Shown: positions 12,277-45,458 of the stretch, piece after piece | Position numbering within the stretch: the stretch's first letter is position 1 | Layout: every line of letters starts with the position of its first letter | DNA from: Streptomyces albofaciens JCM 4342 | GTDB lineage: Bacteria > Actinomycetota > Actinomycetes > Streptomycetales > Streptomycetaceae | DNA length: 64,000 nucleotides | Direction: 5' to 3' | NCBI RefSeq assembly: GCF_008634025.1 | Contig: NZ_PDCM01000001.1 | Coordinates: 4,248,501 to 4,312,500, forward strand | Position numbers and translations under genes: made by a program | The notes under the pieces: generated by a model | The model's database searches: none | The model's input: only the letters and a program-made list of their open reading frames with translations | Told to the model about the DNA's origin: nothing

Positions 12277-12491
12277 GGCTTCTTCTCCCGGGTAGGGTCC
12301 GTTACCGGGGCGCCGGGAGCGGACAGTGGGCGACGGCCACCGGCGGCCCGGAAGGCGCCTCGACTTGCGAACCTAACCCATTCGGCGGTGGCGTCCCGCA
12401 CGGCGCGGGCGTTCCGGAGCCGTTGTGGCATGCGCCACCCGGTCCTCCGGCAGCGCGCCGGGCCGCGCCCTCGCCGGGCGGGCCCCGCAGC

Positions 12492-14430: not shown

Positions 14431-14566
14431 GAGACCCCCGTTGCCATTCCTTTGCCGACGCATGACACACGAGCCCGTGGCGTACGTCAATTCCGGCCCT
14501 GGTCAGCGGGGGTGTTGGCCCCTTTTTCGGTGGATGTGGGAATGGTCGCGGCCCCGGCCTCCGGTG

Positions 14567-17365: not shown

Positions 17366-17558
17366 GTCGCCCCCCGGGCGCTCGCAGATGCCGTATGCGG
17401 CTCGTAGTCGGCGCCGGGACCATCATGCCCCCCGCCACAGCAGCCCTGAAGGGTCCGCGCATATGTGGGGAGGTCCCCGAAGCAGGGGAGGGACGGCGGG
17501 AGTTGAATGGCGGCACGCGCGGACGGAGAACGCGGACGGCGAACTCGGGGGGCAGGTC

Positions 17559-30234: not shown

Positions 30235-30249
30235 GGACCAATGTCCTAT
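30235..30249. promoter_or_regulatory. Candidate operator GGACCA-AT-GTCCTAT upstream of the peptide operon
   Basis: This imperfect palindrome (GGAC-N4-GTCC core) lies 76-90 nt before the first gene of the peptide operon. A second copy with the same flanks, GGACCA-GG-GTCCTAT, lies at 38514-38528 inside a longer perfect inverted repeat. Thirteen of fifteen bases match. The two sites flank the peptide/ATP-grasp/MFS region, which suggests one regulator. The LuxR and GlxA-type regulators at 41.6-43.2 kb are candidates. Confidence 0.55.
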
Positions 30250-30324
30250 AGCGGAGCGACTGGGCGGTCGGCCAAAGTAATGACCACGTCGAGGAAATAT
30301 GCAGAGGCCATGACGGGAGTGATC

Positions 30325-31395
30325 GTGTCCGCACAGATAACCATTGATCCCGGCCGGTTCAGTCAGTTCGGCGAAGCCACCGGAAGCAGCTTCTGCCTGA
30401 TCACGAATTCCGAGTTGGTCGACCGGTTCGAAGTCGTCCGGACGGCTCCCTACCGGGAATTCCTCACCATCACCCTGGACCGGGGCGACGACTTCGCGGA
30501 AATCCTCGACAAGAAGATACCGGAACCCGCGCACGTGCTGGTGGTATCGCCCTACAGATTCTTCGAATCGCCGGACCCCGAACTGGTGGGACAGCGGAAG
30601 ATCATGGGCATGGCGTGCAATTCGACGCCCACCGGCCTTGACGAGATCCGGCACTTCCTCGGTGTGATGGAGCGGACCTCGGCGGCCGACCAGGCGGCGT
30701 TCTGCGACACGTTCTTCGAACTGGCCGAGGACTCCGAGCACCTGGTCTACGCGGACCCCGCGCACGGCACCCGCGCCACCCTCGACCATCTGCGCGACGG
30801 CCTGGTGTGGAACCAGCAGGCCGGCCCGCTGGACTGGGGCGACCAGCAGATCGTCCCGTCCGGCGAGGTCAGCGTGCTGCCGGTGGAGATCAGGGAGTTC
30901 GACGAGGCCCTGAAACTGCCGCTGGAGGGCGAGATCACGCTGCGCGGGTACCCGATCCTGCACAGCGGCACACCTTCCTTCTCCCGGGCGGACCAGGCCC
31001 GCATCCACTCCCGGCTCTGGGCGATGCGGGACAACGCGATCAAGGCCACCGTCAAGGACGGCAGGATCACCGGCCTGGAGGCGCTGGACGCCGGAGCGGC
31101 GCCGGCGGTGGCGATGCTGGAGCAGATGTTCGCGGTGGACTCCCGCTACCGGATCGTGTGGGAGATCGGCCACGCCCTCAACGTCTCGCACGACATCCTG
31201 CCCGGGAACCACGCCATGAACGAGGTGTACGGCGGCACCGAGGGCTGCCTGCACTACGGGCTCGGCCTCACTCCGTACACCCAGTACCACCTGGACATCA
31301 TCGTGCCCGGCACCCGCGTGCTGACCAGTGATGGAGTCGCGGTGCTCGGCCGCCTGGACCGCCCCACCGTCGAGCGGGTCGTCTCCGTCGCCTAG
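30325..31395 (+). CDS. M29-metallopeptidase-like enzyme of the peptide locus, copy 1 (ligands intact)
   Basis: The start at GTG 30325 follows GGGAG and makes the N-terminus line up with the paralogue at 31593 (ITIDPGRFSQFGEA versus ITTSDFGQFGAPA); 356 aa. I do not know a named family for the N-terminal half. The C-terminal third follows the M29 aminopeptidase/NicX-dioxygenase pattern. A stretch GRITGLEA leads to WE280IGHALN, NE300VYGG, CLH310YGLG and YH322LD324, matching the five metal ligands of M29 enzymes. The shared motif WNQQAG...GDQQI.P.G..SV is present mid-protein. It may act on the 18-residue peptide encoded 67 nt downstream: cleavage, or a metal-dependent modification. The family assignment is a motif-level inference. 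Confidence 0.75.
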   Translation: MSAQITIDPGRFSQFGEATGSSFCLITNSELVDRFEVVRTAPYREFLTITLDRGDDFAEILDKKIPEPAHVLVVSPYRFFESPDPELVGQRKIMGMACNSTPTGLDEIRHFLGVMERTSAADQAAFCDTFFELAEDSEHLVYADPAHGTRATLDHLRDGLVWNQQAGPLDWGDQQIVPSGEVSVLPVEIREFDEALKLPLEGEITLRGYPILHSGTPSFSRADQARIHSRLWAMRDNAIKATVKDGRITGLEALDAGAAPAVAMLEQMFAVDSRYRIVWEIGHALNVSHDILPGNHAMNEVYGGTEGCLHYGLGLTPYTQYHLDIIVPGTRVLTSDGVAVLGRLDRPTVERVVSVA

Positions 31396-31462
31396 AGGAG
31401 CACGACCGCACGACCCGGCGGGGTGAACAAAAAGAAATAAAAAACACAGGAGGTGACTGGCC

Positions 31463-31519
31463 ATGAAGAAGATCAAGGTGCAGAAGAACCGCAACTACCT
31501 GGGCACGCTCCTGGGCTGA
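31463..31519 (+). CDS. 18-residue putative precursor peptide
   Basis: The frame encodes MKKIKVQKNRNYLGTLLG and stops. Its Shine-Dalgarno AGGAGGTGA (31448-31456) is a full match to the 16S end with ideal 6-nt spacing, stronger than for any neighbour, and it sits in an A-rich patch (aaaaagaaataaaaaacac) that is unusual here and would keep the site unfolded. The N-terminal half is basic (5 Lys, 1 Arg in 10), the C-terminal half neutral (NYLGTLLG). A hairpin follows 7 nt after the stop. Position between two paralogous enzymes and in front of an oxygenase and a peptidase-like gene fits a ribosomal peptide precursor or carrier peptide, comparable in size to PqqA. No Cys, Ser or core repeats are present. 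Confidence 0.82.
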   Translation: MKKIKVQKNRNYLGTLLG

Positions 31520-31526
31520 GTACCGA

Positions 31527-31561
31527 CCCACGGCGGGGCAGCGATCATGCCCCGCCGTGGG
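31527..31561 (+). terminator. 14-bp perfect hairpin after the peptide gene (attenuator)
   Basis: Arms CCCACGGCGGGGCA (31527-31540) and TGCCCCGCCGTGGG (31548-31561) pair perfectly around a 7-nt loop. No T-tract follows. It lies 7 nt after the peptide stop and 31 nt before the start of copy 2. The likely effect is partial termination plus 3'-end protection, giving much more peptide mRNA than enzyme mRNA, as is usual between RiPP precursor and enzyme genes. Confidence 0.88.
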
Positions 31562-31592
31562 GTTCTCACTGTCTCTCCCAGGGAGTGCGCCC

Positions 31593-32681
31593 GTGCCACC
31601 GCTGGACATCACGACAAGCGACTTCGGTCAATTCGGCGCGCCGGCCGAGACGTTCTGCCTGCTCACGAGTGAACAGTACGCCGAGCCGCCTGCCCTGCTG
31701 CCCGGCGGCGGATGCTCCCGCGTACTGCGCCTGACGCTCCCGCCCGGCGCGCGCCTGGGCGAGGTGATCGCGCGAAGCGTCCCCGCGGACGCGCACGTGT
31801 TGGCGGTCTGCCCCGGGCGGTTCCTCGACTCGCCGGCCGAGCGGGAACTGGGCGGGCGCAAGCTGGCCGTGCTGCCGGCCGGATCCACGCCGCTGACCGC
31901 CGAACACCTCCGCTACTTCCTGAGCACCGCCGCCCGCGTCGACGCGGCCCGGCACGCGCGGGTGGCCGAGGAGTTCTTCGACCGGGTGGGGGAGAGCCGC
32001 CGCCTCACCATCGTCGACGACGCCTCCGGCACCGAGGCCGAGTTCGACCACCACCTCGGCGACTGCGTCTGGAACCAGCAGGCGGGTGTCATGGAAGCGG
32101 GTGACCAGCAGATCTTCCCGCCGGGGAAGCTCAGCGTCACCGCCGCGGAGATCACCACCTTCGCGCCGGACGCCAGGCTGCTCGGCCTCAACGGGGACCT
32201 GACCCTGCGCGGATGGCCCATCGTCCACCGCCACGAGGACCCGGCCGACGGCCCCGAGCAGCAGCGGCTGTTCGAAGCCCTCTCGCCACTCGTCGCCAAC
32301 GCCGTGACGCTGCACGTCACCGCCGGCCGCATCGAGGGTGTCACTCCCCAGACGGCGGCGGCCGCACCGGCCGCCGCGGAGCTGGACAAGCTCCTCACCG
32401 ACGACCCGCGCTACCGCGTCATCTGGGAACTCGGCTTCGGGATCAACACCACCACGGAGGTCATACCGGCGAACTGCGGCCCCAACGAGGTGTACGGCGC
32501 GACCGGTGGCGTCGTCAACCTCGGGCTGGGCGTCACTCCGGCGACGCGCTTCGCCCTGGCCTTCCTCTGCCCCCGCAGCTCGCTGCTGACATCGGACGGA
32601 ACCGCCGTGCTCGGCGCCCGCAAGGCGGTACGCCGCGGCCGGATGCAGCGCGTCTCCAGCGCCGGCTGCGGCTGCCACTGA
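31593..32681 (+). CDS. M29-like paralogue, copy 2 (metal ligands partly lost)
   Basis: GTG 31593 follows GGGAGTG with the same spacing as copy 1; 362 aa. It aligns over its whole length with the protein at 30325 (SFCLIT/TFCLLT, VWNQQAG in both, GDQQIVPSG/GDQQIFPPG, ITLRGYPILH/LTLRGWPIVH). Of the five M29-type ligands E279 and E299 remain, but His is N309 and the H-x-D pair is A321-x-A323. It is therefore probably not a metalloenzyme of the same kind; a peptide-binding subunit or regulatory partner of copy 1 is more likely. The C-terminus ends with an added basic stretch and CGCH, absent from copy 1. The next gene begins 22 nt downstream. Confidence 0.78.
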   Translation: MPPLDITTSDFGQFGAPAETFCLLTSEQYAEPPALLPGGGCSRVLRLTLPPGARLGEVIARSVPADAHVLAVCPGRFLDSPAERELGGRKLAVLPAGSTPLTAEHLRYFLSTAARVDAARHARVAEEFFDRVGESRRLTIVDDASGTEAEFDHHLGDCVWNQQAGVMEAGDQQIFPPGKLSVTAAEITTFAPDARLLGLNGDLTLRGWPIVHRHEDPADGPEQQRLFEALSPLVANAVTLHVTAGRIEGVTPQTAAAAPAAAELDKLLTDDPRYRVIWELGFGINTTTEVIPANCGPNEVYGATGGVVNLGLGVTPATRFALAFLCPRSSLLTSDGTAVLGARKAVRRGRMQRVSSAGCGCH

Positions 32682-32703
32682 CCCCCAAGGAGGAATGCAC
32701 GCC

Positions 32704-33432
32704 ATGACGAGCAACCCCGAACTGCGCAAGAAGGTCGACGCGGTCCTCGACACCTTCATCAAGGACTTCTACGAGACGGTCCCGTACGCCCAGCACCAGA
32801 AGGACTCCGCCGAGCTGAACCTCGACTACTACAAGCGCCACAACATCGAGACGATCCTGCGGCTGCGCCGCAAGCGGACCGTGGACGCGCTGGCCATCAA
32901 GTACTTCACCAAGGTGGACCCGGTGCAGGCCAAGGCGTGGGCGCACTACACCGACGACGAGATGCTGCACGACCGGCTGTTCGCGGCCGACCTCGCCAAG
33001 GTCGGGGTCACCAAGGACCAGATCTACTCCACCGAGCCGATGCTCTCCACCAAGCTGCTCACCGGATACCTCCAGTACGGCATGGAGTTCGAGGACAGCC
33101 CGCTGGCGCTGATCACCAGCGTCTATTTCGTGGAGTACGTCACCACCCGCACCCAGCCCGAATGGCTGGACAACCTGGGCAACGTCCTCGGCGAGGAGAA
33201 CGTCAAGGGCGCCCGCGCCCACGTCAACACCGACCTCGACGACGACCACGACGACTTCGTGTGGCGGGTGCTGTCCACGCTCATCATGTCGGAGGCCGAC
33301 GAGCAGCGGGTGATGGAACACCTCAACCACATCTACTGGCTGTGGAAGCTGTACTTCGTGGAGCTGCACCAGCTCACCGTGGTCGGCAAGAGCGACGCCC
33401 AGATCCCGCTGCCCACCGCGGCCGACGTCTGA
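32704..33432 (+). CDS. Haem-oxygenase-like putative diiron oxygenase
   Basis: ATG 32704 was preferred over the ATG 9 nt upstream because AAGGAGGA abuts the latter. The 242-aa all-helical protein has the layout of the iron-containing redox/TENA-like group (haem-oxygenase-like diiron oxidases such as UndA and the SznF central domain). Candidate ligands are H81, E86 and H89 in HYTDDEMLHD, E144 in VYFVEYVTTR, H173 and H182 in AHVNTDLDDDHDD. Such enzymes use O2 for N-oxygenation, decarboxylative or C-C cleaving chemistry. In this operon it could oxidise the peptide, for example at Tyr or Asn, or a free amino acid derived from it. Assignment to the fold is fairly firm, the reaction unknown. Confidence 0.8.
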   Translation: MTSNPELRKKVDAVLDTFIKDFYETVPYAQHQKDSAELNLDYYKRHNIETILRLRRKRTVDALAIKYFTKVDPVQAKAWAHYTDDEMLHDRLFAADLAKVGVTKDQIYSTEPMLSTKLLTGYLQYGMEFEDSPLALITSVYFVEYVTTRTQPEWLDNLGNVLGEENVKGARAHVNTDLDDDHDDFVWRVLSTLIMSEADEQRVMEHLNHIYWLWKLYFVELHQLTVVGKSDAQIPLPTAADV

Positions 33433-33444
33433 GCGGGGGCGGCG

Positions 33445-34212
33445 GTGGCTGACGACGGCCGTGCCACACGGCGGGACGGGCGGCGGGGCGTCGAGATCCT
33501 GACCCTGCCGCCCGGCCGGGACCTGCCGACCGAGACCGAGAAGCGGATCGTGGACGGCCTGGTCCTCGCGATGCCCGGGCTGCGCACCCGCCAGCTCTTC
33601 ACGCTCCGACGCGACATGCTGACCACAGCCGACTACGTCGTCGTCGGGGTGGACCGCGAGCGCGACCGGGTCGTCGCGCTGCTCACCTCGCGGTGGGCGG
33701 AGCTGCCCTCGGGGCGCGGCTGTCTGCACATCATGATCCAGTTCGTGGGGGACGCGTACCGCAACGGGGTGGTCTTCAAGGAGAGCTGGGCGGCGCACTT
33801 CGCCCGTCTGCTCGCCGACGGACGCCCGTTCCCCGAGGTGATCGCGCTCAAGACGTACAACCCCGTGGTGCACCGCGCGATGTCGGCGTTCAGCGGCCAC
33901 CCGGACATCGCCCTGTACCCGGACCTCACCGGCAAGGACGACAGCCGGGCGGCCCTGGCGGCAGAGGTCGCCGCGGCACTCGCGCCCGGAGCGCCCTTCG
34001 ACCCGGCCCGCGGGGTCATCCCCGGCATCGGCCGCCCGCTCGACCTGTACCGGGAGCGGCCGCTGAGCCATGTGCCCGACACCAACCGGTACTTCGCCGA
34101 GCACACCGAGCCGGGCGACCGGGTGCTGTGCCTGCTGCACGTGCCCACCCAGGCGGGGGCGCACTCGATCCTCACCGCCCTCGGGGTGCCGCTGCCCTCG
34201 GCGCGGTGCTGA
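33445..34212 (+). CDS. GNAT-like hypothetical protein of the peptide locus
   Basis: The GTG lies 12 nt after the oxygenase stop. The 255-aa product contains a central stretch (YVVVGVDRERDRVVALLTSRW, CLHIMIQFVGDAYRNGVVFKESW, EVIALKTYNPVVHRAM) with the strand-helix order of an N-acetyltransferase fold and the usual RxxGxx/A-like turn as YRNGVV. The last 90 residues are unlike GNATs and contain HVPDTNRYFAEH. It could acylate the peptide or a fragment of it. The family call is weak; placement in the operon is solid. Confidence 0.6.
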   Translation: MADDGRATRRDGRRGVEILTLPPGRDLPTETEKRIVDGLVLAMPGLRTRQLFTLRRDMLTTADYVVVGVDRERDRVVALLTSRWAELPSGRGCLHIMIQFVGDAYRNGVVFKESWAAHFARLLADGRPFPEVIALKTYNPVVHRAMSAFSGHPDIALYPDLTGKDDSRAALAAEVAAALAPGAPFDPARGVIPGIGRPLDLYRERPLSHVPDTNRYFAEHTEPGDRVLCLLHVPTQAGAHSILTALGVPLPSARC

Positions 34213-34319
34213 GCCCCGCCCGGCCGACCGGGCCCGGCGCCCCCTGCGGGCTCCGGGCCCGTCGGCGTCCCCGCGACCAGGACCCTCATCCCTCCGGAAC
34301 CCCAGGAACGCGAGGCAGC

Positions 34320-35423
34320 ATGTCAGACGAGACCTCCCTCGACTTCGCGCCCGACTACTCCCGGGCCCGCGCGCGATTCCTGGAGGCGGCACAGGAGACG
34401 GGCGCCCGCCTGCGGAGCTTCGTCCTGCCCGGCCACCGCGGGCCCGACGGCGGCGAACTCGCCGTCGACACCGCCTACCTGGGGCCGCCCGACCCGGTGA
34501 AGCTGCTGGTGACGGTCTCCGGAACACACGGCATCGAGGGCTTTTGCGGTGCGGCCTGCCAGACCCGGATCCTGCTGCGGGAAGGTGTCGCGGAGGCCGC
34601 CGTGGGGCCCGCGACCGGCGTGCTGCTGGTGCACGGCCTCAACCCGTACGGCTTCGCCTATCTGCGCCGCGTCAACGAGGACAACATCGACCTCAACCGC
34701 AACTTCGTCGACCACCACGCCCCGCCGCACAACGACTCCTACGACGCGGTGCACGGCACGCTGGTGCCGGCGGAGGGCAGTGAGTTCGACCCCGGCGAAC
34801 TGGTCGCGAACCTCACCGCGCTGCGCGACCGGCTCGGTCCACAGAGGCTCCAGGAGGCCGTGACCCGGGGTCAGTACCGTCACCCCGACGGTCTGTTCCA
34901 CGGCGGGCGGGCACCGGCCTGGTCCCGGCGGGTGTTCGAGACGGTGGTGGCCGAGCAGATGGCGGGCGCGGCCCACGTCGGCTACATCGACCTGCACACC
35001 GGGCTCGGCGAACGCGGCGCCGGCGAACCCATCTTCCGCGGCGGCCGCGACCCGGACGCCCGCCGGCGGGCCCGCCGCTGGTACGGCGAGGCGCTCACCG
35101 CCTCGGAAGAAGGCACGTCCTCCTCCACCCCGATCGTCGGCAACACGGCGACCGCCGTGGCGGACGGCCTCGGCGCCGGCAGCCGCCTGACCGCGATCAC
35201 CCTGGAGTTCGGCACCCAGCCGGGGCCCCAGGTGCTGCTGGCACTGTGCGCCGACACCTGGCTGCACCGGCACCACGCACCGGCCGACGCCGTACGGTCG
35301 GACCTCAAACAACTGATCCGCGACGCCTTCTGCCCCGACGACGCCGACTGGCGCGGGCAGGTGCTCCGGCGGGCGCGGGAGGTTTTCGCACAGGCCATCG
35401 CGGGACTCGCCGACGCCAAGTGA
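34320..35423 (+). CDS. DUF2817 / M14-like metallopeptidase-like protein
   Basis: The 367-aa product shows the DUF2817 signatures: SGTH70GIE73GFCGA (zinc-binding HxxE), NEDNIDLNRNF and YIDLH226TGLG (third zinc ligand). These are the carboxypeptidase-fold metal sites. It starts 107 nt after the previous gene, with a weak AGGCAGC leader. In the context of an 18-residue peptide it is a good candidate for trimming the basic leader or releasing a modified C-terminal fragment. It is the last rightward gene of the operon, followed by a strong hairpin. Confidence 0.86.
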   Translation: MSDETSLDFAPDYSRARARFLEAAQETGARLRSFVLPGHRGPDGGELAVDTAYLGPPDPVKLLVTVSGTHGIEGFCGAACQTRILLREGVAEAAVGPATGVLLVHGLNPYGFAYLRRVNEDNIDLNRNFVDHHAPPHNDSYDAVHGTLVPAEGSEFDPGELVANLTALRDRLGPQRLQEAVTRGQYRHPDGLFHGGRAPAWSRRVFETVVAEQMAGAAHVGYIDLHTGLGERGAGEPIFRGGRDPDARRRARRWYGEALTASEEGTSSSTPIVGNTATAVADGLGAGSRLTAITLEFGTQPGPQVLLALCADTWLHRHHAPADAVRSDLKQLIRDAFCPDDADWRGQVLRRAREVFAQAIAGLADAK

Positions 35424-35431
35424 CCGCCGGC

Positions 35432-35486
35432 CGGACGGCCCGGTCATGCCGGAGGGGGCTGCCCGCCGGCGCGACCGGGCCGTCCG
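35432..35486. terminator. Bidirectional terminator hairpin
   Basis: Perfect 14-bp arms CGGACGGCCCGGTC (35432-35445) and GACCGGGCCGTCCG (35473-35486) enclose a 27-nt loop that holds a further 5-bp stem. The element sits between the convergent DUF2817 and ATP-grasp genes, 8 nt and 12 nt from their stops. Confidence 0.85.
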
Positions 35487-35498
35487 CCCGTGCCGCCG

Positions 35499-36746
35499 TC
35501 AGACCAGGCCGGGCGGGTCGATCACCACCTTGGCCTCGATCTCCCGGACCCGCTTGGTGTCCTGGTCGAGAACCTCCTGGTCGGGGGTGGAGAGCAGCAC
35601 CCAGCCGAGGGTGGTGAAGAGGTCCTCGGTCCTGGGCACCCGGGAGCCGTTGGGGTAGCGGCAGGCCAGCTTCTGGAACGAGGCCAGCTCACGCGCCGCG
35701 TCGAGCACCTCCGCGTTGCTCATGGTGCCGCTGTTCGCGGCGGAGAGCCACACCACCCGGGTGGGCCGCACGATCTCGTATCCGGGGGTGAAGGCGGAGT
35801 CCAGATGGTGCCGTACGGCGCGGTCGATCTGGCAGTCTCCGGTCGCGAGCCGCGCGGCCTGCTGCGCACAGCCCCCGTCGAGGCGCGCCGCGATCTCGAT
35901 CAGCCGGGGGCCGTCGTCCGTCAGCATGATCTCGGTGTGGGTGCATCCCGTACGGATGCCGACCGCGTCGGCGACCTGGCGCGTGTAGGACTCCAGGACG
36001 CCGACCAGCGGGTCGTCGGGCTGCAGGTAGTCCTCCGCGTCGTAGACCCCGATGCGGTTCCCCCGGGCCGACTTGCTGTAGCGGACCACGGCCACCAGCC
36101 CCATCCGCCCGTCGACGGAGTAGGTGTCCACGACGAACTCGGTGCCCGAGGCGAACTCCTGGATGAGGATGCTGTCGTTCGTCAGGTCGAACATGTTGAC
36201 GGAGCCCAGCAGCCGCCGGAAGGAGGGCCGCCAGTCCTCGCCGGCCTCCACCTTGTGCACGCCGTCGGTGCCGCCGCTGCACCGCGGCTTGAGCACCAGT
36301 GCCCGTCCCTCCAGGCCGTTCTCCCGCAACCAGCTCGCCGCTTCCTCCTCGCTCGCGGTGGCGAACGTGCGAAGGTGCGGAACGCCCGCGCTCGCCACGG
36401 CCTGGGCCATGGGCCACTTGTCGCGGCGCGCCGCGGAGAGTCCGGGGACATTTCCTGCCCCCGGGGTCAGCTCTTCGACCAGCGCGTCCACGAGCCTGAC
36501 CGCGGACTCGTTGCCGGGAATGACGGCGACCGGATCATAGCCGCGCACGATGCCGACGAGCTTCGCGAAGTCCCCGTCGTGGAAGTGTGTCGCGTGGAAA
36601 GCCTCCGGTTTCCAGCCGTGCAGATACGATTTCAGCGGTGCCGGTGTGCTGAGCACCGCGACCGGTTCGACCCCGCGGGCCCGGAAGGCGTTGGCGTATT
36701 CGGCGGCCTCGGAATAGGGGTCGATCAGGACTACATGGCGTGGCAT
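35499..36746 (-). CDS. ATP-grasp ligase
   Basis: The 415-aa protein has an N-terminal Rossmann-like part (RHVVLIDPYSEAAEYANAF) and an ATP-grasp core. Visible features are LVLKPRCSGGTDGV (nucleotide loop), SILIQEFASGTEFVVDTYSVDG (hinge and strand), and HTEIMLTDDGPRLIEIAARLDGG (Mg-binding E and N/R region). Stand-alone ATP-grasp enzymes of this size ligate amino acids or attach an amino acid to a carboxylate through an acyl phosphate. It faces the peptide operon and probably forms a transcription unit with the MFS gene upstream (72-nt gap). It may join the peptide-derived residue to another building block. Confidence 0.9.
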   Translation of the reverse strand: MPRHVVLIDPYSEAAEYANAFRARGVEPVAVLSTPAPLKSYLHGWKPEAFHATHFHDGDFAKLVGIVRGYDPVAVIPGNESAVRLVDALVEELTPGAGNVPGLSAARRDKWPMAQAVASAGVPHLRTFATASEEEAASWLRENGLEGRALVLKPRCSGGTDGVHKVEAGEDWRPSFRRLLGSVNMFDLTNDSILIQEFASGTEFVVDTYSVDGRMGLVAVVRYSKSARGNRIGVYDAEDYLQPDDPLVGVLESYTRQVADAVGIRTGCTHTEIMLTDDGPRLIEIAARLDGGCAQQAARLATGDCQIDRAVRHHLDSAFTPGYEIVRPTRVVWLSAANSGTMSNAEVLDAARELASFQKLACRYPNGSRVPRTEDLFTTLGWVLLSTPDQEVLDQDTKRVREIEAKVVIDPPGLV

Positions 36747-36818
36747 CTGTGTGCTTCCCCTTCTGCGATGGTTCCCGCTGCTTGTGCGGTCTTCCGACGG
36801 GCGAATGCGATGCCCGCC

Positions 36819-38168
36819 CTAAGTTCCCGTACGGATCTCCGCGTCGGCCGTCCCGGAACCGCCGGCCCCGCCCGTCTTCTCCTCGCTTCCGCCGCTCTCC
36901 TCGCCCTTGTCCCCGTCCGCCGCGCCGGCCGTCGGACGCACCCCGCCCCAGGCGGCTGCCACGGCGATCAGCCCCACGATTCCGCAGCCGATCCACAGCC
37001 CTTCCCGGAAGCGGTTCCAGATCATCACTCCGATGAACGGGCCGATCGCGCTGCCGAGTCCGTACAGGGCGTTCGAGGCCCCCAGATAACGTCCCCGCAG
37101 TCCGGGCGGGCCCGCCTGCGCGGGGTAGGCGAAGAACAGGGACGGATAGCCGATGATCTCGCCGAGCGACCAGACGAGGGTGGCGATCACCAGTGCGGCC
37201 AGGCCCCAGGGCAGGGCGTACATGCTCATGCCGATGCCGGTCAGCAGCACACCGATGATCACCGCGGTACGGATCCGCCAGCGCTGCACCACCTTGGCGA
37301 CGAGGAGTTCGCAGGCGATGACGAGGAAGCCGTTCAGCGCGATCAGCACCGCGTAGACCTCGACGCCCATGCCGAGGTGGCGCACGGTCAGCGGCAGGGC
37401 CGAGATGTGCTGGATGTAGATCACCGAGCTGACGAACATCGCCAGCAGGAACAGCAGATAGCGGCGGTCGGCCAGCACCGCCAGGTACGAGGCCCGGGGG
37501 GCTTTCCCGCCGTCGCCCGGGCCGTCGGCCGCCGGCCCGGGCGTGTCCGGCGCGACATGCGGCAGGGTGGTCGCGACCACCGTGGAGAAGATCACCACGG
37601 CCAGCGCCTCGCCCCAGAACAGGAAGTCCCAGGAGACCTTGACGAGCGCGGCACCCAGCAGGGGCGCGGCCGTCGTGCCGAGGTTGATCGCCAGACGGCC
37701 CATGGCGAAGATCATGACGTGTCGCTCGGTCGGGGTGAGGTGGCTGATCACGCTGGTGGAGGCGGGCTGGTAGGCCATGCTGGCCGCACCGCTGACGCCG
37801 ATGACCGCGAGGATGGCCCAGTAGTTGTCCAGGTAGAGGACGCAGGGGAGCAGCACGGCGGACCCCAGCAGGGTGGACACGATCGTCAGCCGCGGCCCGA
37901 GCCGGTCGGACATCCCGCCGCCGATCAGCGTCCCGAGCACGGCGCCCCCGCCGTACACGCCGAGCGCGGCACCCGCCTGGGTGTCGGAGAAGCCGCGATG
38001 GGTCAGATACAGCACCATGAAGACCTGCACGAAGCCGCCCAGCCGGTTGATCATGGTGCCGGCCAGCAGGGACTTCACCGCTGTGGGGGACTCGCGCCAG
38101 ACCTGCCGCACGCCCGCGTGCTGCTTCCCGGCCCCGTCCGACGCTTTCGTCGCGTTGTTCTGTGCCAT
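36819..38168 (-). CDS. Major facilitator superfamily transporter
   Basis: The 449-aa protein has about twelve hydrophobic helices, the motif-A-like loop GGGMSDRLGPR after helix 2, and a Lys/Gly-rich loop in the middle (APDTPGPAADGPGDGGKAPR). The C-terminal tail is hydrophilic and Gly/Glu-rich. The ATG at 38168 was chosen because hydrophobic sequence begins about 30 residues later and homology-like sequence does not extend upstream. Most likely the exporter or self-resistance pump for the product of the adjacent peptide/ATP-grasp genes. First gene of the leftward unit, next to the long inverted repeat at 38509-38530. Confidence 0.92.
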   Translation of the reverse strand: MAQNNATKASDGAGKQHAGVRQVWRESPTAVKSLLAGTMINRLGGFVQVFMVLYLTHRGFSDTQAGAALGVYGGGAVLGTLIGGGMSDRLGPRLTIVSTLLGSAVLLPCVLYLDNYWAILAVIGVSGAASMAYQPASTSVISHLTPTERHVMIFAMGRLAINLGTTAAPLLGAALVKVSWDFLFWGEALAVVIFSTVVATTLPHVAPDTPGPAADGPGDGGKAPRASYLAVLADRRYLLFLLAMFVSSVIYIQHISALPLTVRHLGMGVEVYAVLIALNGFLVIACELLVAKVVQRWRIRTAVIIGVLLTGIGMSMYALPWGLAALVIATLVWSLGEIIGYPSLFFAYPAQAGPPGLRGRYLGASNALYGLGSAIGPFIGVMIWNRFREGLWIGCGIVGLIAVAAAWGGVRPTAGAADGDKGEESGGSEEKTGGAGGSGTADAEIRTGT

Positions 38169-38695: not shown

Positions 38696-40003
38696 GTGGC
38701 ATCGTTCGGATGGGCCGAGAATGCGCCGGAGCAGGAACGCATTATCAGCTGGCAGGCTCCTCCGCTGAAATTCGGTGTCGGCGCCACCCGGGAGATCGGC
38801 CACGCGTTGCGCGCGTCCGGTATCACCTCGGTTCTGCTGGTGACCGATCCCGTCCTGGCCGGGCTCGGACTGCCCGCCCGCGTCGCCAAGCAGATCGAGC
38901 AGGAGGGGATCCAGGTCGCGCTGTTCGACCGGGCCCGGGTGGAACCCACCGACGAGAGCTGCGCCGAGGCGGCCCGGGAACTGGCGGACCTCCAGGTGGA
39001 CGGTTACGTCGGCCTCGGCGGCGGCAGCTCGATCGACACCGCCAAGATGCTGAACCTGCTGCTGAGTCACCCCGGCCGCCCGGTACGCGACTACCTGAAC
39101 GCCCCGATCGGCGCCGGGTCCCCGATCCCCGGCCCGCTCAAGCCGCTGGTCGCGGTGCCCACCACGGCCGGCAGCGGCAGCGAGTGCACCGCCATGGTCG
39201 CCCTCGGCGTCACGGGCCTGAACGTGAAGACCGGCATCAGCGACCCGCGGCTGCTGCCCTCCCTGGCACTGGTCGACCCCGCGAACACGCTGACCCTGCC
39301 CCCGGCGGTCACCGCGGCGTCCGGGTACGACGTCCTGACGCACGCCTGCGAGTCGTACACCGCGCGCGCCTACGACCGGCGCCCTCCGTACGCCACCCCG
39401 GCGGACCGCCCGCTGTACATCGGCGCCAACCCGATCAGCGACATATGGGCGGAGCAGGCGCTGGAACTGGTGGGCCGCTACCTCAGGCGGGCCGTGCTCA
39501 ACCCCGACGACCTGGAAGCCCGTACGGGAATGAGCCGGGCCGCGAGCTTCGCGGGCATGGGATTCGGCAACGCCGGGACCCACATTCCGCATGCCTGCGC
39601 CTACCCGGTCGCCGGGCTGGTCCGCGACTACCGGCCGGACGGATACGAAGTCGGCCACGCCATGGTCCCGCACGGCGCCGCGGTCGTCTCCACCGCGGCG
39701 GCGGCCTTCGAGTTCACGTATCCGACCTCCCCCGAACGCCACCTGCGCGCCGCGGAGCTGCTCGGCGCGAATCTCGCCGGAGTCACCGCGGCCAACGGCG
39801 CGGACGTGCTTCCGGCGACGCTGCTGAGCATCGTGACGGACACCGGAGGGCCCGCCGGCCTGCGGGACTTCGGCTACGGCGCCAAGGACGTACGTGAACT
39901 CGTCGAGGGCGCGCTCAAGCAGCAGCGGCTGCTGGTGTGCTGCCCGCGCGACGTCACCGCGCGCGATCTCGAAAGGGTCATCGTCGGGTCGATGGCCCGC
40001 TGA
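38696..40003 (+). CDS. Iron-containing alcohol dehydrogenase (hydroxyacid-oxoacid transhydrogenase-like)
   Basis: The GTG at 38696 follows GGGGG; 435 aa. Motifs of group III Fe-ADHs are present: GGGSSIDTAKMLNLLL, PTTAGSGSECT, and the metal site with D in PISDIWAEQAL, H in THIPHACAYPVAG and GHAMVPHGAAV. The segment around the His residues is closest in pattern to ADHFE1-type hydroxyacid-oxoacid transhydrogenases, which interconvert 4-hydroxybutyrate and succinate semialdehyde. In this cluster a semialdehyde such as aspartate semialdehyde is a tempting substrate. It is followed after 59 nt by an aldehyde dehydrogenase, so a hydroxy acid, aldehyde, acid sequence is possible. Confidence 0.9.
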   Translation: MASFGWAENAPEQERIISWQAPPLKFGVGATREIGHALRASGITSVLLVTDPVLAGLGLPARVAKQIEQEGIQVALFDRARVEPTDESCAEAARELADLQVDGYVGLGGGSSIDTAKMLNLLLSHPGRPVRDYLNAPIGAGSPIPGPLKPLVAVPTTAGSGSECTAMVALGVTGLNVKTGISDPRLLPSLALVDPANTLTLPPAVTAASGYDVLTHACESYTARAYDRRPPYATPADRPLYIGANPISDIWAEQALELVGRYLRRAVLNPDDLEARTGMSRAASFAGMGFGNAGTHIPHACAYPVAGLVRDYRPDGYEVGHAMVPHGAAVVSTAAAAFEFTYPTSPERHLRAAELLGANLAGVTAANGADVLPATLLSIVTDTGGPAGLRDFGYGAKDVRELVEGALKQQRLLVCCPRDVTARDLERVIVGSMAR

Positions 40004-40062
40004 CGGCCGAGCAGCACCCCACCACCCCCCGCCTCCCCCGCGTCAAGGAGCTGGATAGAGCC

Positions 40063-41520
40063 GTGAGTCACGCATGTCTACCGGAGCACGCGGCTGTCAT
40101 CGCGGGGAAGAGGGTCCCCACCGGGCGGTGGATCGACGTCCTCGACCCGTCGGACGCCCGCCCCTTCGCCCGGGTCGCCCGGTGCGGCCCGGACGAGGTC
40201 CGAGCGGCCGTGGAAGCGGCCCGGCAGGCGTACGAGACAGTCTGGCGGTTCGTGACACCGGTGGAGCGCTCCCGTGCCTGCCGGCGGATCGCCGAGGCCC
40301 TGCGCGGTGAGCGCGAGGAACTGGCCAGGCTGGAGACCCTGGACACCGGCAAGCCGATCGGCCAGTCGCGGACGGATGCCGACGTCGCCGCCCGGTACTT
40401 CGACTTCTACGCCAACGCCGTGGAATCGCTCGGTGGTGAAACGATTCAGCAGCGGCCCGACCGCCTGGCCTTCACCCTGCGCGAACCGTACGGCGTGTGC
40501 GGGCACATCATCCCGTGGAACTACCCGCTGCAGATCGCCGCCAGGACCCTGGCCCCGGCCCTCGCCGCGGGGAACTGCTGTGTCCTCAAGCCCGCCGAGG
40601 ACGCGCCGCTGACCTCGCTCCGCCTGGCCGGCCTCGTGGAAGAGGCGGGACTCCCGGCGGGAGTCCTGAACGTCGTGCCGGGCTACGGGGAGGAAGCGGG
40701 AGCCGCGCTCGCCGCGCACCCCGGTGTGGACCGGATCGCGTTCACCGGCTCGCGGGAGGTCGGCGAGGCCGTGATGGCCGCCGCCGCGCGCAACATCGTG
40801 CCGGTCACATTGGAACTGGGCGGGAAGTCCCCGCAGTTGGTGCTCCCCGACTACGACGCCGAGCGGGCGGTGCCGCAGATCGTGGAGGCGATCACGGAGC
40901 ACGCCGGACAGAACTGCAGCGCCGGGAGCCGCCTGCTCGTCCACCGGTCCGTGCACGACGAACTGGTGGCCGCCCTCGCCGGGAGGTTCCGCGCGCTGCG
41001 CATCGGCCCGGGCATCGGCGATCCCGACATGGGGCCGCTCATCTCCGCGAAACAGCGTGCAAGAGTGCTCGCCCACCTGGCCGAGGCGCGCCGGGAGACC
41101 GAGGTCGTCGTCGGCGGCGGAGTGCCCGAGGGGGAGGCGTACGCGGACGGCTTCTACGTGGAGCCCACCCTCCTCGACCGGGTGACGCCCCGGCACCGCG
41201 TCTTCAACGAGGAGATCTTCGGCCCGGTCCTGTGCGTGTCGGTCTTCGACACGCTGGACGAGGCGGTCGCCCTGGCGGAGCACACCACGTACGGGCTGGC
41301 CGCCGGCGTCTGGACGTCCGACGTGACCACGGCCCACTGGCTCGCCGGGCGGTTGCGGGCGGGCCAGGTGTTCGTGAACGACTACAGCGCGGCCGGGGGA
41401 GTCGAGTTGCCGTTCGGCGGCTACCGGCGCTCCGGAATCGGCGTGGAGAAGGGGCTGGAGGCGCTGCGCGCATACACGCGGTGCAAGACGGTGGCGATCC
41501 ACGCGCGGATGCCTGCTTGA
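40063..41520 (+). CDS. NAD(P)-dependent aldehyde dehydrogenase
   Basis: The 485-aa protein contains all core ALDH motifs: PWNYPLQI, KPAEDAPLT, FTGSREVG (cofactor loop), TLELGGKSP (general base Glu), GQNCSAGSR (nucleophile Cys) and EEIFGPVL. The overall pattern is that of betaine-aldehyde or aminoaldehyde dehydrogenases. AAGGAG lies 13 nt before the GTG, slightly long. It is coupled by position to the iron dehydrogenase. It would oxidise an aldehyde intermediate to the acid; which one is not visible. Confidence 0.95.
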   Translation: MSHACLPEHAAVIAGKRVPTGRWIDVLDPSDARPFARVARCGPDEVRAAVEAARQAYETVWRFVTPVERSRACRRIAEALRGEREELARLETLDTGKPIGQSRTDADVAARYFDFYANAVESLGGETIQQRPDRLAFTLREPYGVCGHIIPWNYPLQIAARTLAPALAAGNCCVLKPAEDAPLTSLRLAGLVEEAGLPAGVLNVVPGYGEEAGAALAAHPGVDRIAFTGSREVGEAVMAAAARNIVPVTLELGGKSPQLVLPDYDAERAVPQIVEAITEHAGQNCSAGSRLLVHRSVHDELVAALAGRFRALRIGPGIGDPDMGPLISAKQRARVLAHLAEARRETEVVVGGGVPEGEAYADGFYVEPTLLDRVTPRHRVFNEEIFGPVLCVSVFDTLDEAVALAEHTTYGLAAGVWTSDVTTAHWLAGRLRAGQVFVNDYSAAGGVELPFGGYRRSGIGVEKGLEALRAYTRCKTVAIHARMPA

Positions 41521-41634: not shown

Positions 41635-42138
41635 ATGTCAGGTGTTGCGCGAGGGACCGTTGCGGAGTCGAGTTACCAGCAGTGCTGCGAATTCTGCGGA
41701 GCGCCGTCCAGGCCCGTGGCGGCCCTGGTCAGGACGGTCGCCAACGCGTACAAGGCGCTCGGCGAGGCGCAGGACGCGCTCGAAGCCCAGGGGAAGCTGA
41801 TAAAGGACCTGCGGGCGGCCGCGAGACCGTCCCCCTCCGAAAAGGTCCTCGCGGCCCGGGCGGCGCTCGACCTCCTGACGGCCCGTGAGCGCCAGATCCT
41901 GGTGCTCATATCCCAGGGTCATTCCAATCGCAGTGTTGCCAGGGAGCTCGGAATTTCCGAGAAGACGGTGAAGAACCACTTGTCCGCGCTCTTCACCAAG
42001 GCGGGGGTGTCCGACCGTACGCAAGCGGTGGTCCTGGGGATCCGCAGCGGGATCGTCTCCCTCGACGAACCCTGCGGGGATGTGCCGCCGGCCGCGGGTC
42101 CGCGTGCGGGTCTGCCCGCCGATTCAGGTTCACGCTGA
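41635..42138 (+). CDS. LuxR-type helix-turn-helix regulator with N-terminal cysteines
   Basis: The ATG at 41635 was preferred over the in-frame ATG at 41611 because GGAGGG lies in between. The 167-aa product has a CC..C motif (QQCCEFCGAP) near the N-terminus, a short predicted coiled coil (AYKALGEAQDALEAQGKLIKDL) and a LuxR domain (about 78-140: LLTARERQILVLISQGHSNRSVARELGISEKTVKNHLSALF). It has no receiver domain, so it is a stand-alone regulator, perhaps metal- or redox-sensitive through the cysteines. A candidate reader of the palindromes at 30.2 and 38.5 kb. Confidence 0.9.
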   Translation: MSGVARGTVAESSYQQCCEFCGAPSRPVAALVRTVANAYKALGEAQDALEAQGKLIKDLRAAARPSPSEKVLAARAALDLLTARERQILVLISQGHSNRSVARELGISEKTVKNHLSALFTKAGVSDRTQAVVLGIRSGIVSLDEPCGDVPPAAGPRAGLPADSGSR

Positions 42139-42215: not shown

Positions 42216-43190
42216 ATGCTGGAGAATGTAGCCGCGGTCCTGCTCGAAAACGTTCACCCATTCGAGCTGGGCGTCATATGCGAAGTATTCGGGCTCGACC
42301 GCAGGGAGGAGGGCCTGCCCGCGTACGACTTCGCGCTCGTCGCAGCGGAGTCCTCGTCGGTACGGGCGGTGCCCGGGTTCACCATCAGCACGCCCTACGG
42401 CCTCGACCGGCTGGCGGACGCCGACCTCATCGCCATCCCGGTCGGGGACGACTTCCACACCAGGGACTTCCCGCCCGCCCTGCTGGAAGCCCTGCGCCAG
42501 GCGGTGGCCCGGGGAGCCCGGGTGGTCAGCGTCTGCGTCGGCGCCTTCGTCCTGGGCGCCGCCGGGCTGCTCGACGGACGGCGCTGCACCACGCACTGGC
42601 GGTACGCCGAAGCGCTCGCCGAGCGCTTCCCCAAGGCCGAGGTCGAACCGGGAGTGCTCTACGTGGACGAGGACCCGATCCTCACCTCGGCCGGTACGTC
42701 GGCGGGCATCGACGCCTGCCTCCACCTGGTGCGCAAGCTCCAGGGCAGCGACGTCGCCAACGCCATCGCCCGGCGCATGGTGGTGCCCCCGCACCGGGAA
42801 GGCGGCCAGGCCCAGTACATCGAGCGGCCGGTCGCCCACTGCGGGGAGGACGGCGTACGCGAGGTGCTGGTCTGGGCCGAGATGCACCTGGACCAGGAGA
42901 TCAGCGTGGAGCAGCTGTCGGCACGGGCCTGCATGTCGCCGCGCACCTTCGCCCGCCGCTTCCGGACGGAGACCGGGACCACCCCCTACCGCTGGCTGCT
43001 GGCGCAGCGGGTGCTGAGCGCCCAGCGGCTGCTGGAGAACACCGACGAGACGATGGAGGCGATCGCGGCCCGTACGGGATTCGCCAACGCGGCGGCCCTG
43101 CGGTACCAGTTCGTGCGGTCCCTCAACACCACCCCCCACGCGTACCGGCGTGCGTTCCGGGGGCGGTTGTCCGGCACCACCAGGCAATGA
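42216..43190 (+). CDS. GlxA-family AraC regulator (DJ-1/PfpI domain + AraC HTH)
   Basis: The 324-aa protein has an N-terminal class-I amidotransferase-like domain (about 1-165; SVCVGAFVLGAAGLLDGRRCTTHW with the Cys elbow) and a C-terminal AraC double HTH (about 215-315; ISVEQLSARACMSPRTFARRF, TPYRWLLAQRVLSAQRLLE). The frame is open 69 nt further upstream, but the domain begins at MLENVAAVLLENVHPFELGV. Such regulators often control catabolic or secondary-metabolite operons. It follows the LuxR gene by 77 nt and precedes the aspartate-pathway pair by 31 nt. Confidence 0.92.
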   Translation: MLENVAAVLLENVHPFELGVICEVFGLDRREEGLPAYDFALVAAESSSVRAVPGFTISTPYGLDRLADADLIAIPVGDDFHTRDFPPALLEALRQAVARGARVVSVCVGAFVLGAAGLLDGRRCTTHWRYAEALAERFPKAEVEPGVLYVDEDPILTSAGTSAGIDACLHLVRKLQGSDVANAIARRMVVPPHREGGQAQYIERPVAHCGEDGVREVLVWAEMHLDQEISVEQLSARACMSPRTFARRFRTETGTTPYRWLLAQRVLSAQRLLENTDETMEAIAARTGFANAAALRYQFVRSLNTTPHAYRRAFRGRLSGTTRQ

Positions 43191-43221: not shown

Positions 43222-44271
43222 ATGCTGCGCATCGCGGTAGTGGGGGCCACCGGAGCGGTGGGCCGGGAGTGCCTGACCCTGCTCGACGGCGGGATCGTGC
43301 CGGTGGAACAGGTGGTGCCCGTCGGTTCCGGGCGCAGCCTCGGCCGGGACGTGGGCGGCGAACTGGGGCTGTCGCTGCCCATGGCGGAGCTGGTGACGCT
43401 CGACGGGCTGGACCCCCGGGGCCTGGACGTCGCCGTCTTCTCCGCGGGAGCGGAGATCAGCGCCCGCGAGGCGGAGCGGCTGGCCTCGGCCGGGGTGCTG
43501 GTCGTCGACAACAGCTCCGCCTTCCGGATGCGCGCCGACGTTCCCCTCGTCGTACCGCAGGTCAACCCCGGCGCGCTCGACGACCGGCCGGCGTCGAACC
43601 TCGTGTCCAACCCCAACTGCTCGACCATCCAGCTGGTGCGCGCCCTGAAGCCGCTGCACGAACTGGCGGGCCTGGAAGGCGTCGTGGTGGCCACCTACCA
43701 GGCGGCGTCCGGCGGTGGCGTGCGCGGTCTGCGCGAACTGGCCGAGGAGTCCAGGGCCGTCCTGGACGACCCCCGCGCGCAGGGCGCCCCCGGCGGGCGC
43801 TTCGGACAGCCGCTGGCCTTCAACCTCGTCCCGGAGATAGGGCTGCCGGACGCCACCGGGCTCACGCACGAGGAGCGCAAGCTCGTCCGCGAGCCGCGCA
43901 AGATCCTCGGCCTGCCGGACCTGCGGGTGAGCGCCACCGCGGTCCGGGTCCCGGTCTTCGACTGCCACTCCGAGGCCGTGCACGTCAGGCTGCGGGAGCC
44001 GGTCACGGCCGGGTCCGTCGAGGCCGCCCTGGCCGCGACACCCGGGATACGCGCCTACGGCCGGTCGCAGAGCCCCTCGTACCCCATGCCCCGCACCGTC
44101 TTCGCCCGGCCGGAGGACCGTGCCCTGGTCCACGTCGGGCGGATACGCGTCGAGCCGGAGGACGACCGGGCGGTGGCGCTCTGGGTGGTCGCCGACAACC
44201 TGTGGGTGGGGGCGGCGCTCAACGCGCTGCAGATCGTGGAACTCGCCCTGAAGAACGGGTGGCTCGGATGA
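43222..44271 (+). CDS. asd: Aspartate-semialdehyde dehydrogenase
   Basis: The 349-aa enzyme has the dinucleotide loop VVGATGAVGREC, the catalytic Cys in SNPNCSTIQ, and QAASGGGVRGL. It reduces aspartyl phosphate to aspartate semialdehyde. GGAGG precedes the ATG. The following aspartokinase gene overlaps by ATGA, in the order asd-ask, the reverse of the common primary-metabolism operon. Together with two specific regulators upstream this suggests a pathway-dedicated copy. It lacks the usual DapB or hom neighbours. Confidence 0.94.
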   Translation: MLRIAVVGATGAVGRECLTLLDGGIVPVEQVVPVGSGRSLGRDVGGELGLSLPMAELVTLDGLDPRGLDVAVFSAGAEISAREAERLASAGVLVVDNSSAFRMRADVPLVVPQVNPGALDDRPASNLVSNPNCSTIQLVRALKPLHELAGLEGVVVATYQAASGGGVRGLRELAEESRAVLDDPRAQGAPGGRFGQPLAFNLVPEIGLPDATGLTHEERKLVREPRKILGLPDLRVSATAVRVPVFDCHSEAVHVRLREPVTAGSVEAALAATPGIRAYGRSQSPSYPMPRTVFARPEDRALVHVGRIRVEPEDDRAVALWVVADNLWVGAALNALQIVELALKNGWLG

Positions 44272-45458
44272 CGGCCCGCCGCGTGCCCGTCGGGCCTCCG
44301 CTGGTGCTGAAGTTCGGTGGCTCGGCCTTCGCCGACCTCGACGGCTACCACCGGGTGGCCCGGTACGCGGCGCGCCGCGCCGCCGAGGACGGACGCCCGC
44401 TGGTCGTGGTGGCGAGCGCGATGTCCGGGACGACGGGCAGGCTCCAGCAGACCTTGGACGCCCTGGCCGAGGACCCGCCGGCGGACGCCGCGGCCATGCT
44501 GCTGACCACCGGTGAGACGGTGAGCGTCGCCCTGCTGGCCGCCGCGCTCGACGCCGAGGGCGTGCCGGCCCGCCCCCTCCAGGCGGCGGACACCGGACTC
44601 CTCGCCGAGGGGCCGGCCGACCGGGCGGCGCTCGTCTCGGCCGGCCCCGGGGCGCTGGCCGGGGCCCTGGCCTGCTGCCCGGTCGCGGTCGTCCCCGGTG
44701 GCCAGGCCGTCGACGCGGAGGGACGCACCGTCATGCTGGGCCGTAACAGCTCGGACCTCTCGGCGGTGGCGACGGCCGCCGCGCTGGGTGCCGAGACCTG
44801 TGAACTCTTCTCCGACGTGCCCGGAGTGTGCACCGCCGACCCCTACCTGGTCCCGGAGGCCCGCACCCTCTCCCGCATCAGCTACGAGGGAGCGCGCCGG
44901 ATGTCCCGGCACGGGGCCAAGGTCGTCCACGAGGGCGCCGTGGACTGGGCGGAGCGCGGTGGAGTGCGGCTGCTGTGCCGTCCCTTTCCCTGGTGCGAGG
45001 CCCCGGACGGCGGGACCGCCGTGGGTACGGGACCGGAGGCGGCCGCGGTCGTCGTGCACCGCCACAGCGACGTGTGGTGCTTCGGGTCCGGGCGAGAACG
45101 CGGGGCGGTGGGGAGACTGCTGGGGGCCGAGGGCCTGGCCGTCGCGGAGTTCGACACCGCGGGCGGGGCATGTCTGACGGTGCCGGCCGGAGTGCGGGGC
45201 GTGGCCCGGCACTTGCGCGACGCGCGCCGTCTCGACGGCCTGTGCCTGGTCACCACGCTGTGGCCGGACGGCAGGGCGGAGCACACGGCGGTGCCGCGCC
45301 CGGAGGCCGCGGCCGAAGCCCGCAGGCGCCACGCGCTGCTGTACCCGGACCCCGGGGGCACCGCCGGTCGGGCCGTCCGGCCACCGGCCAAGGCCCGCTC
45401 CCCGCACAGCGACGTCCTGGTCGGTCCGGCCCGGTCGGAGAGCCGGCGTCCGTCGTGA
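44268..45458 (+). CDS. Aspartokinase-like protein, probably pathway-dedicated
   Basis: The 396-aa product begins VLKFGGSAFADLDGY (kinase KFGGSS loop with A for the second S) and contains TTGETVSVALLAAAL, LGRNSSDLSAVATAAAL and FSDVPGVCTADPYLVP, all aspartokinase hallmarks. The C-terminal half should carry ACT domains but is divergent, with an extra Arg/Ala/Pro-rich tail (from about 345). A changed regulatory half would free the enzyme from lysine/threonine feedback, as expected for a biosynthetic-cluster copy; this is inferred. The start overlaps the asd stop. Confidence 0.88.
   Translation: MTARRVPVGPPLVLKFGGSAFADLDGYHRVARYAARRAAEDGRPLVVVASAMSGTTGRLQQTLDALAEDPPADAAAMLLTTGETVSVALLAAALDAEGVPARPLQAADTGLLAEGPADRAALVSAGPGALAGALACCPVAVVPGGQAVDAEGRTVMLGRNSSDLSAVATAAALGAETCELFSDVPGVCTADPYLVPEARTLSRISYEGARRMSRHGAKVVHEGAVDWAERGGVRLLCRPFPWCEAPDGGTAVGTGPEAAAVVVHRHSDVWCFGSGRERGAVGRLLGAEGLAVAEFDTAGGACLTVPAGVRGVARHLRDARRLDGLCLVTTLWPDGRAEHTAVPRPEAAAEARRRHALLYPDPGGTAGRAVRPPAKARSPHSDVLVGPARSESRRPS

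Follow-up and report, generated by a model that had tools for sequence, protein, structure and literature searches.

A candidate peptide-based pathway with CgnB/CgnE-type proteins in Streptomyces albofaciens and in bacteria of five phyla

The window analysed here is a stretch of 64,000 nucleotides from Streptomyces albofaciens JCM 4342 (NZ_PDCM01000001.1, positions 4,248,501 to 4,312,500), which lies within a 9.25-Mb genome whose closest named relatives at the locus are Streptomyces. It harbors a gene of 18 codons, located between the genes of two paralogous proteins, A and B, and these genes form part of a cluster that is interpreted below as a candidate pathway for a ribosomally synthesised and post-translationally modified peptide (RiPP). 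The initial annotation had proposed a run of A, peptide, B, C, D and E, with F and G on the other strand, and this setting was borne out by gene order and by family and fold matches. The features at the centre of the locus are the following:

31463..31519, + strand: gene of an 18-codon precursor or carrier peptide (motif and synonymous codon change)
31448..31455, + strand: ribosome-binding site AGGAGGTG of the peptide gene (from the sequence)
31527..31561, + strand: 14-bp hairpin 3' of the peptide gene (minimum free energy -34.6, z -4.9)
30280..31395, + strand: protein A, CgnB-like fold, six putative metal ligands E196, E295, E315, H325, H337 and D339; start uncertain
31593..32681, + strand: protein B, CgnE-like paralogue of A (39% identity) with a degenerate metal site (K, E, E, N, A, A in the ligand columns)
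32704..33432, + strand: protein C, haem-oxygenase-like diiron enzyme (HDO) of the MboA type (MboA 9ypi, E 1.7e-27; ligands invariant in 17 proteins)
33445..34212, + strand: protein D, GNAT fold
34320..35423, + strand: protein E, DUF2817 (PF10994, E 3e-113)
35499..36746, - strand: protein F, ATP-grasp ligase of the PRK07206 subfamily, DdaF-like (NF005543, above cut-off)
36819..38168, - strand: protein G, transporter of the major facilitator superfamily (MFS; PF07690, E 7e-40)

Pfam and NCBIfam gave no match for A, B or D, and the Haem_oxygenas_2 match of C lies below the curated cut-off. The start codon of A is uncertain, as many relatives start 10-17 residues further in. Protein E is a DUF2817 protein, which we take to be metallopeptidase-like. 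The small frame is translated as MKKIKVQKNRNYLGTLLG, and the 3' end of its ribosome-binding site lies seven bases 5' of the ATG, in agreement with the tiny gene with a Shine-Dalgarno sequence described at the outset. The hairpin behind it is possibly a partial terminator or an mRNA stabiliser. A hairpin at z about -3 or lower was found 3' of the peptide gene, or of its last tandem copy, in 18 of 26 folded loci in addition to the window; none that strong was found in the other eight (for example L045, L049 and L053), and an Rfam scan of the window gave no match.

Conservation of the small frame at homologous loci had been named as a check, and it was examined in 66 loci retrieved from a species-genome collection by a scan with an alignment of protein A alone. 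The motif N..Y.G.[LIVM][LIVM]G-stop was searched on both strands of all of them; as it was derived from earlier loci, N, Y, G and the last G (and the stop) are constant by construction. It occurs in 96 copies in 60 of the 66 loci, always on the strand of A and at most 1.2 kb from A or B, and is absent from the remainder of the 2.32 million strand-bases of these loci. The consensus C-terminus of the copies is K-N-x-x-Y-[LT]-G-[TSN]-L-[LI]-G-stop. At the free positions, 50 distinct DNA strings hold K in 50/50 and L in 50/50, the latter followed by L in 49 and I in one; Tyr is followed by L (40) or T (10), LL is preceded by T (40), S (9) or N (1), and the last Gly is encoded by GGC (28), GGT (18), GGA (3) or GGG (1). 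The constant K and L, and the synonymous codon changes at the motif's fixed letters, do not follow from how the motif was derived. Because the residues are conserved while the codons vary synonymously, chance is excluded, as is a signal residing purely in DNA or RNA. Selection thus acts on the 18-codon frame as a coding sequence, and in five phyla the frame is linked to protein A. Five of the six loci without the motif (L043, L082, L087, L091 and L092) are contigs ending at A, and the sixth, from Parafrankia (L090), is decayed. There, at about 9700-9820, an interrupted A match stands with a decayed peptide copy (...ESYLGTPLG), and the peptide seems to erode along with A.

The peptide is mostly 16-23 residues long and is found in up to seven tandem copies per locus; its gene, single or in tandem, precedes A in Acinetobacter, Nostoc and others. 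In Nostoc linckia (L073, 7476-8239), MKNRKKNGQYTGSLLG is encoded seven times in tandem, every copy having a ribosome-binding site of its own, 5' of two intact A-type genes. The hosts named in the 66 A-locus records include Streptomyces, Kitasatospora, Frankia, Nocardia, Sphaerisporangium, Actinoallomurus, Nostoc, Cylindrospermum, Calothrix, Phormidium, Acinetobacter, Noviherbaspirillum and Ferruginivarius, together with metagenome-assembled genomes (MAGs) of Coxiellaceae, Pyrinomonadaceae and Chloroflexi.

The proteins that bracket the peptide gene point to a known peptide-binding family. In the crocagin pathway of Chondromyces crocatus (CgnA-CgnE), as described in PMC10070186, CgnB and CgnE bind the 21-residue CgnA and both act with the Fe/2-oxoglutarate enzyme CgnC. 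CgnB harbors a zinc site (E161, E252, E274, H280, H291 and D293) that is lost in CgnE, and its metals are proposed there to catalyse elimination at Tyr20 of CgnA, whose listed positions are R13, K15, K16, G17, N18, I19, Y20 and W21. The same source reports homologues from about 100 genomes: where there is a single copy its site is intact, and where there are two the second is degenerate. All of its two-copy loci are stated to be crocagin-like with a CgnC homologue.

An AlphaFold2 model of A from 50 aligned sequences (predicted local distance difference test, pLDDT, 92.8) gave clear matches in Foldseek and VIA-align 2 only to CgnE/CgnB, 2,5-dihydroxypyridine dioxygenase and M29 aminopeptidases. 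By Z, CgnE scores 23.0 (root-mean-square deviation 3.5 over 291) and CgnB, tied with it, 22.2 (3.9 over 292), the dioxygenase 21.0 and the M29 enzymes 14.3-15.9, whereas a ranking on Foldseek E-values puts the dioxygenase first. The putative ligands of A keep the CgnB order at similar spacing, and it is from order and spacing that their correspondence is read. All six are present in 56 of 96 A/B proteins, H337 and D339 both being missing in the other 40, and the intact and degenerate sets fall on opposite sides of one supported branch of an unrooted tree that carries a long-branch warning. This split is the pattern described for CgnB and CgnE in PMC10070186. Judged by the modelled fold, A and B belong with these crocagin peptide-binding proteins, the predicted two-metal site being intact in A and lost in B. 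The kinship rests on fold, residues and context and not on a sequence profile. The initial annotation had seen in A and B two paralogous M29-like proteins: the paralogy stands, while neither matched the curated model of Peptidase family M29 and the fold is nearest to CgnE/CgnB.

The cluster reaches on its right to about 45458, beyond the stretch first noted, and includes these further genes, with relatives counted in the type I loci defined below:

38696..40003, + strand: iron-dependent alcohol dehydrogenase (Fe-ADH; PF00465; relatives in 18/36 type I loci)
40042..41520, + strand: aldehyde dehydrogenase (ALDH), start uncertain (PF00171; relatives in 17/36 type I loci)
41635..42138, + strand: LuxR-type regulator (PF00196)
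42216..43190, + strand: AraC/DJ-1-type regulator, start uncertain (PF12833 and PF01965)
43222..44271, + strand: aspartate-semialdehyde dehydrogenase (Asd), extra copy (NF011456, above cut-off)
44268..45458, + strand: aspartokinase (AK), by Pfam a kinase domain alone (PF00696, 12-236)

Pfam finds no ACT domain in this aspartokinase, and its own genome holds, outside the cluster, a second aspartokinase match and a further two for Asd. The extra AK, without an ACT domain match, and the extra Asd presumably reflect a dedicated supply of aspartate semialdehyde.

Three types of locus were set with 17 query proteins, by the presence of C (type I), AzlC (type II) or a class-V aminotransferase (type III); as flanks span at most 10 kb per side and many contigs are shorter, all neighbour counts are lower bounds. 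The 36 type I loci contain D in 36, E in 33, F in 19, AK and Asd in 18 each, Fe-ADH and ALDH as given above, and a short-chain dehydrogenase/reductase and G in 12 each, with one peptide copy in 35 and a cut contig in the other. The 15 type II loci, from verticillate Streptomyces, Acinetobacter, Noviherbaspirillum and others, are of the AzlC type, AzlC/AzlD being an amino-acid exporter family; none of C, D, E and F was found in them, eight have an S9 peptidase, and the peptide is present in one to four copies. Type III comprises four loci (three Nostocales and one Oxalobacteraceae MAG), two of them with PhyH, which have up to seven peptide copies, one contig being cut. The remaining 11 of the 66 loci were left unassigned, and several of these are short. 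Among the 17 queries only the A/B family is common to all three types, partly by construction, as the loci were retrieved with A. Small Cys-rich GFA-like proteins are encoded near A in Noviherbaspirillum (L079, 12125-12556, a weak PF04828 match) and in Nostoc (L067, 2159-2614, by eye).

In a sample of the genus, B had a match at E 1e-10 or better in 14 of 295 genomes. In nine of these, including that of the window, adjacent A and B genes are accompanied by the peptide: six carry the identical 18-mer, one carries MTETKKIEVKKNGKYLGTLLG and two carry three copies of MKKTIKVRKNSNYLGTLLG. Each of the remaining five gave a single distant match (25-30%), with no motif seen in the surrounding 4-kb loci. 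The locus is rare and patchy, because A was found in just two of 396 genomes of a phylum-wide sample, namely that of the window and another from its genus. Outside these samples, a plasmid of Paraburkholderia largidicola (L100), the single match in a plasmid collection covering at least 80% of protein B, encodes MKNRKKNAEYLGTLLG immediately 5' of an A gene, and the frame after A was read as AzlD-like by eye rather than by family search. Eight Streptomyces plasmids in the same search match 64% of B at about 30%. One of these plasmids (NZ_CP102510.1, L101) encodes at 6568-7861 a distant A-like protein, about 31% identical to B over the matched part. Its gene adjoins an annotated 46-residue frame that ends in KYGKYDRLEG and is not the motif peptide, and a radical SAM protein, an adenylation protein and a non-ribosomal peptide synthetase are also found there; perhaps this is another peptide family served by CgnB-like proteins.

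The earlier assignments of C, D and E to a haem-oxygenase-like diiron protein, a GNAT-like protein and a DUF2817 protein all hold. C matches by profile MboA (PDB 9YPI), which has the ligands E86, H89, E143, H172, D176 and H181, joined in one chain by D90; Tyr82 is its possible base (PMC13185094). The equivalents of all eight positions are invariant in the 17 C proteins, and the contacts of MboA with arginine are partly kept in the profile alignment (D61 is retained, N57 is replaced by K and D139 by V). MboA binds its substrate via the C-terminal carboxylate and oxidises the C-terminal residue, and without MboB it stops at the alkene (PMC13185094). As the cluster genes, the part of the genome that was searched for it, gave no match to an MboB-like reductase, our guess is that the chemistry of C would yield an alkene rather than an alkyne. 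In the genus sample, C has relatives in 22 of 295 genomes; in seven genomes these reach 79-100% and accompany the peptide locus, and D is found in exactly these seven. It had been considered that the flanking enzymes might be widespread without the small frame; this is not so for A, and it does apply to relatives of C. Two other loci concern C-like enzymes. Beside the A, C and D genes of Phormidium (L071, 2302-3006) lies a second haem-oxygenase-like protein (PF14518), and in a Streptomyces relative (L099; G257:C8:110000-129500), at 7887-12941, an HDO 40% like C is next to two ATP-grasp proteins and a frame that looks flavoprotein-like by eye, a group reminiscent of a mangotoxin-type set.

It is considered probable, with ample room for error, that the frame codes for a peptide serving as substrate in a RiPP-type pathway on CgnB/CgnE-type proteins, leading to a small exported product. 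The proposed model is that A, with B where present, would bind the basic N-terminal half of the peptide and act on, or present, the C-terminal Y-[L/T]-G-[T/S]-L-L-G, while B would assist in presenting this end. A is the likeliest candidate for the core catalyst, because no other of the 17 query proteins is found in all three types. With less weight, a small amino-acid-like product may be freed by a peptidase (E in type I, S9 in verticillate Streptomyces) and exported by AzlC/AzlD or the MFS pump. In type I, an aspartate-semialdehyde-derived unit would probably be built; C would oxidise it, D would acylate it and, in roughly half of these loci, ligase F would join it. The joint claim that A modifies the C-terminal Y-x-G-x-L-L-G, that B helps to present it, that the peptidase frees the product and that the pump exports it is rated a reasonably good prospect. 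The tandem copies fit a consumed precursor, and the constant presence of D in type I, the 15 AzlC loci that lack C, D, E and F, and the hairpins of the folded loci are among the points in support.

Several observations weigh against this model. HMMER profiles of A retrieved neither CgnB nor CgnE in the PDB at E 10, E is not within the flanks of 3/36 type I loci, the terminal Gly offers an MboA-type enzyme no beta-carbon to act on, and the single peptide copy of type I would fit a recycled carrier equally. In addition, one locus (L097; G187:C2:28500-48400) has on its - strand, at about 8400-17800, an HDO about 60% like C and no A, B or peptide. Since this enzyme sits with AK and Asd in a peptide-free locus, C may not touch the peptide, and the C module may make an aspartate-derived unit independently of it. 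Besides AK and Asd, that locus encodes a TauD-type dioxygenase, the E chain of a methylaspartate mutase, a solute-binding protein and two EamA pumps, and its product may be a (methyl)aspartate-derived unsaturated amino acid.

The alternative that deserves most attention, although it is thought unlikely, is a carrier or scaffold peptide: an amino acid would be joined to the C-terminal Gly and modified by C and others while A and B hold the peptide, and the DUF2817 peptidase would cut the product off, so that the peptide is recycled. Such carrier systems (LysW, PEARL) combine a small ribosomal peptide, an ATP-grasp ligase, an aspartate-type kinase, a semialdehyde dehydrogenase and a terminal peptidase, all shared with the window. 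All 96 copies stop right after the same Gly (the stop is in the search motif, and the six motif-free loci were checked by eye), the extra AK and Asd would supply an aspartate-derived unit not contained in the peptide, and the mode of substrate binding and oxidation of MboA (PMC13185094) and the single copy per type I locus also suit a carrier. However, ligase F is present in just 19/36 loci of type I and is absent from those of types II and III, the tandem copies of types II and III suggest consumption, and no LanB-like PEARL or LysW-type domain match was found among the cluster genes of the window. The carrier and the consumed substrate both put the peptide at the chemical centre, and differ on whether it is consumed.

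The other explanations give the peptide a different role. Exporters and tandem copies could suit a peptide that is itself, or in modified form, the secreted active agent, be it a signal or an antimicrobial peptide, but its C-terminus is nearly constant over five phyla, unlike most signals or bacteriocins, and AzlC/AzlD belong to an amino-acid exporter family, which makes this improbable. A regulatory leader or attenuator upstream of B, which the strong hairpin 3' of the frame would favour, is a touch more improbable still: residues and not codons are conserved, the frame lies upstream of A in several genera, and neither the Rfam scan nor the eight folded loci without a strong hairpin lend it support. 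A chance frame is given practically no probability; 18-codon frames are common by chance, but the motif in 60/66 A loci, its synonymous codons and the out-of-sample Paraburkholderia locus refute it.

Pyrroloquinoline quinone (PQQ) biosynthesis (PqqA-E) shares with the window a short ribosomal peptide, a haem-oxygenase-fold protein and a peptidase, and a PQQ-type logic had been suggested for it. That suggestion is not borne out, as no radical-SAM PqqE or PqqD match was found in the scanned cluster genes and the diiron protein matches MboA. In the mangotoxin pathway, MboA shares with C the fold family, the metal ligands, Asp90 and Tyr82, and an ATP-grasp ligase is present in the same cluster, as here (PMC13185094). 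The window differs in that no MboB-like reductase was found in the cluster, the Arg-binding residues are partly kept and a ribosomal peptide is present; the substrate is, as far as can be told, not Leu-Ala-Arg.

Crocagin biosynthesis (PMC10070186) is alike in a precursor of about 20 residues with a basic leader, in a paralogous CgnB/CgnE-type pair with one metal site intact and the other lost, in a Tyr four residues after the last Lys of CgnA (K-N-x-x-Y here), and in an oxygenase and a releasing hydrolase nearby. In contrast, CgnA ends in Ile-Tyr-Trp and the window peptide in Y-L-G-T-L-L-G; none of the 50 DNA strings has Trp at the place that would give a crocagin-type Tyr-Trp ending. No CgnC-like Fe/2-oxoglutarate dioxygenase, CgnD-type or methyltransferase gene was found in the window's cluster. 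The present loci also differ by the diiron HDO, the AK and Asd and the AzlC loci with a single A, and the statement in PMC10070186 that two-copy loci are crocagin-like with CgnC does not fit them. The early impression that the enzymes lie outside known RiPP classes is thus half right: by fold A and B group with CgnB/CgnE, while the crocagin precursor ending and a CgnC-like gene were not found in the window's cluster. The locus is classed as a RiPP-type pathway with CgnB/CgnE-type proteins, its parts akin to known ones (the crocagin binding proteins, MboA), and not as a crocagin.

More tentatively, and with somewhat less than even confidence, the loci may represent a widespread undescribed RiPP class, in which one CgnB-like metalloprotein turns a near-invariant peptide C-terminus into an amino-acid-like metabolite. 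Its minimal form would consist of peptide copies, a CgnB-like protein and AzlC/AzlD (Acinetobacter, Noviherbaspirillum and, by eye, Paraburkholderia), and its elaborated form, in actinomycetes, cyanobacteria and others, would add a degenerate partner, an MboA-type diiron enzyme and the dedicated aspartate-semialdehyde supply. The literature searched gave no match for this precursor, gene set, minimal AzlC form or breadth of hosts. Genes this short are hard to annotate, so that the centre of such a pathway is easily overlooked despite its presence in five phyla. The occurrence of a ribosomal peptide beside MboA-type diiron chemistry is relevant to unsaturated amino acids, and the minimal set of a peptide, one protein and one exporter pair would allow a direct test of what CgnB-type proteins catalyse. 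If the proposed model is true, crocagin-type peptide-binding proteins would go from one well-studied case to general machinery.

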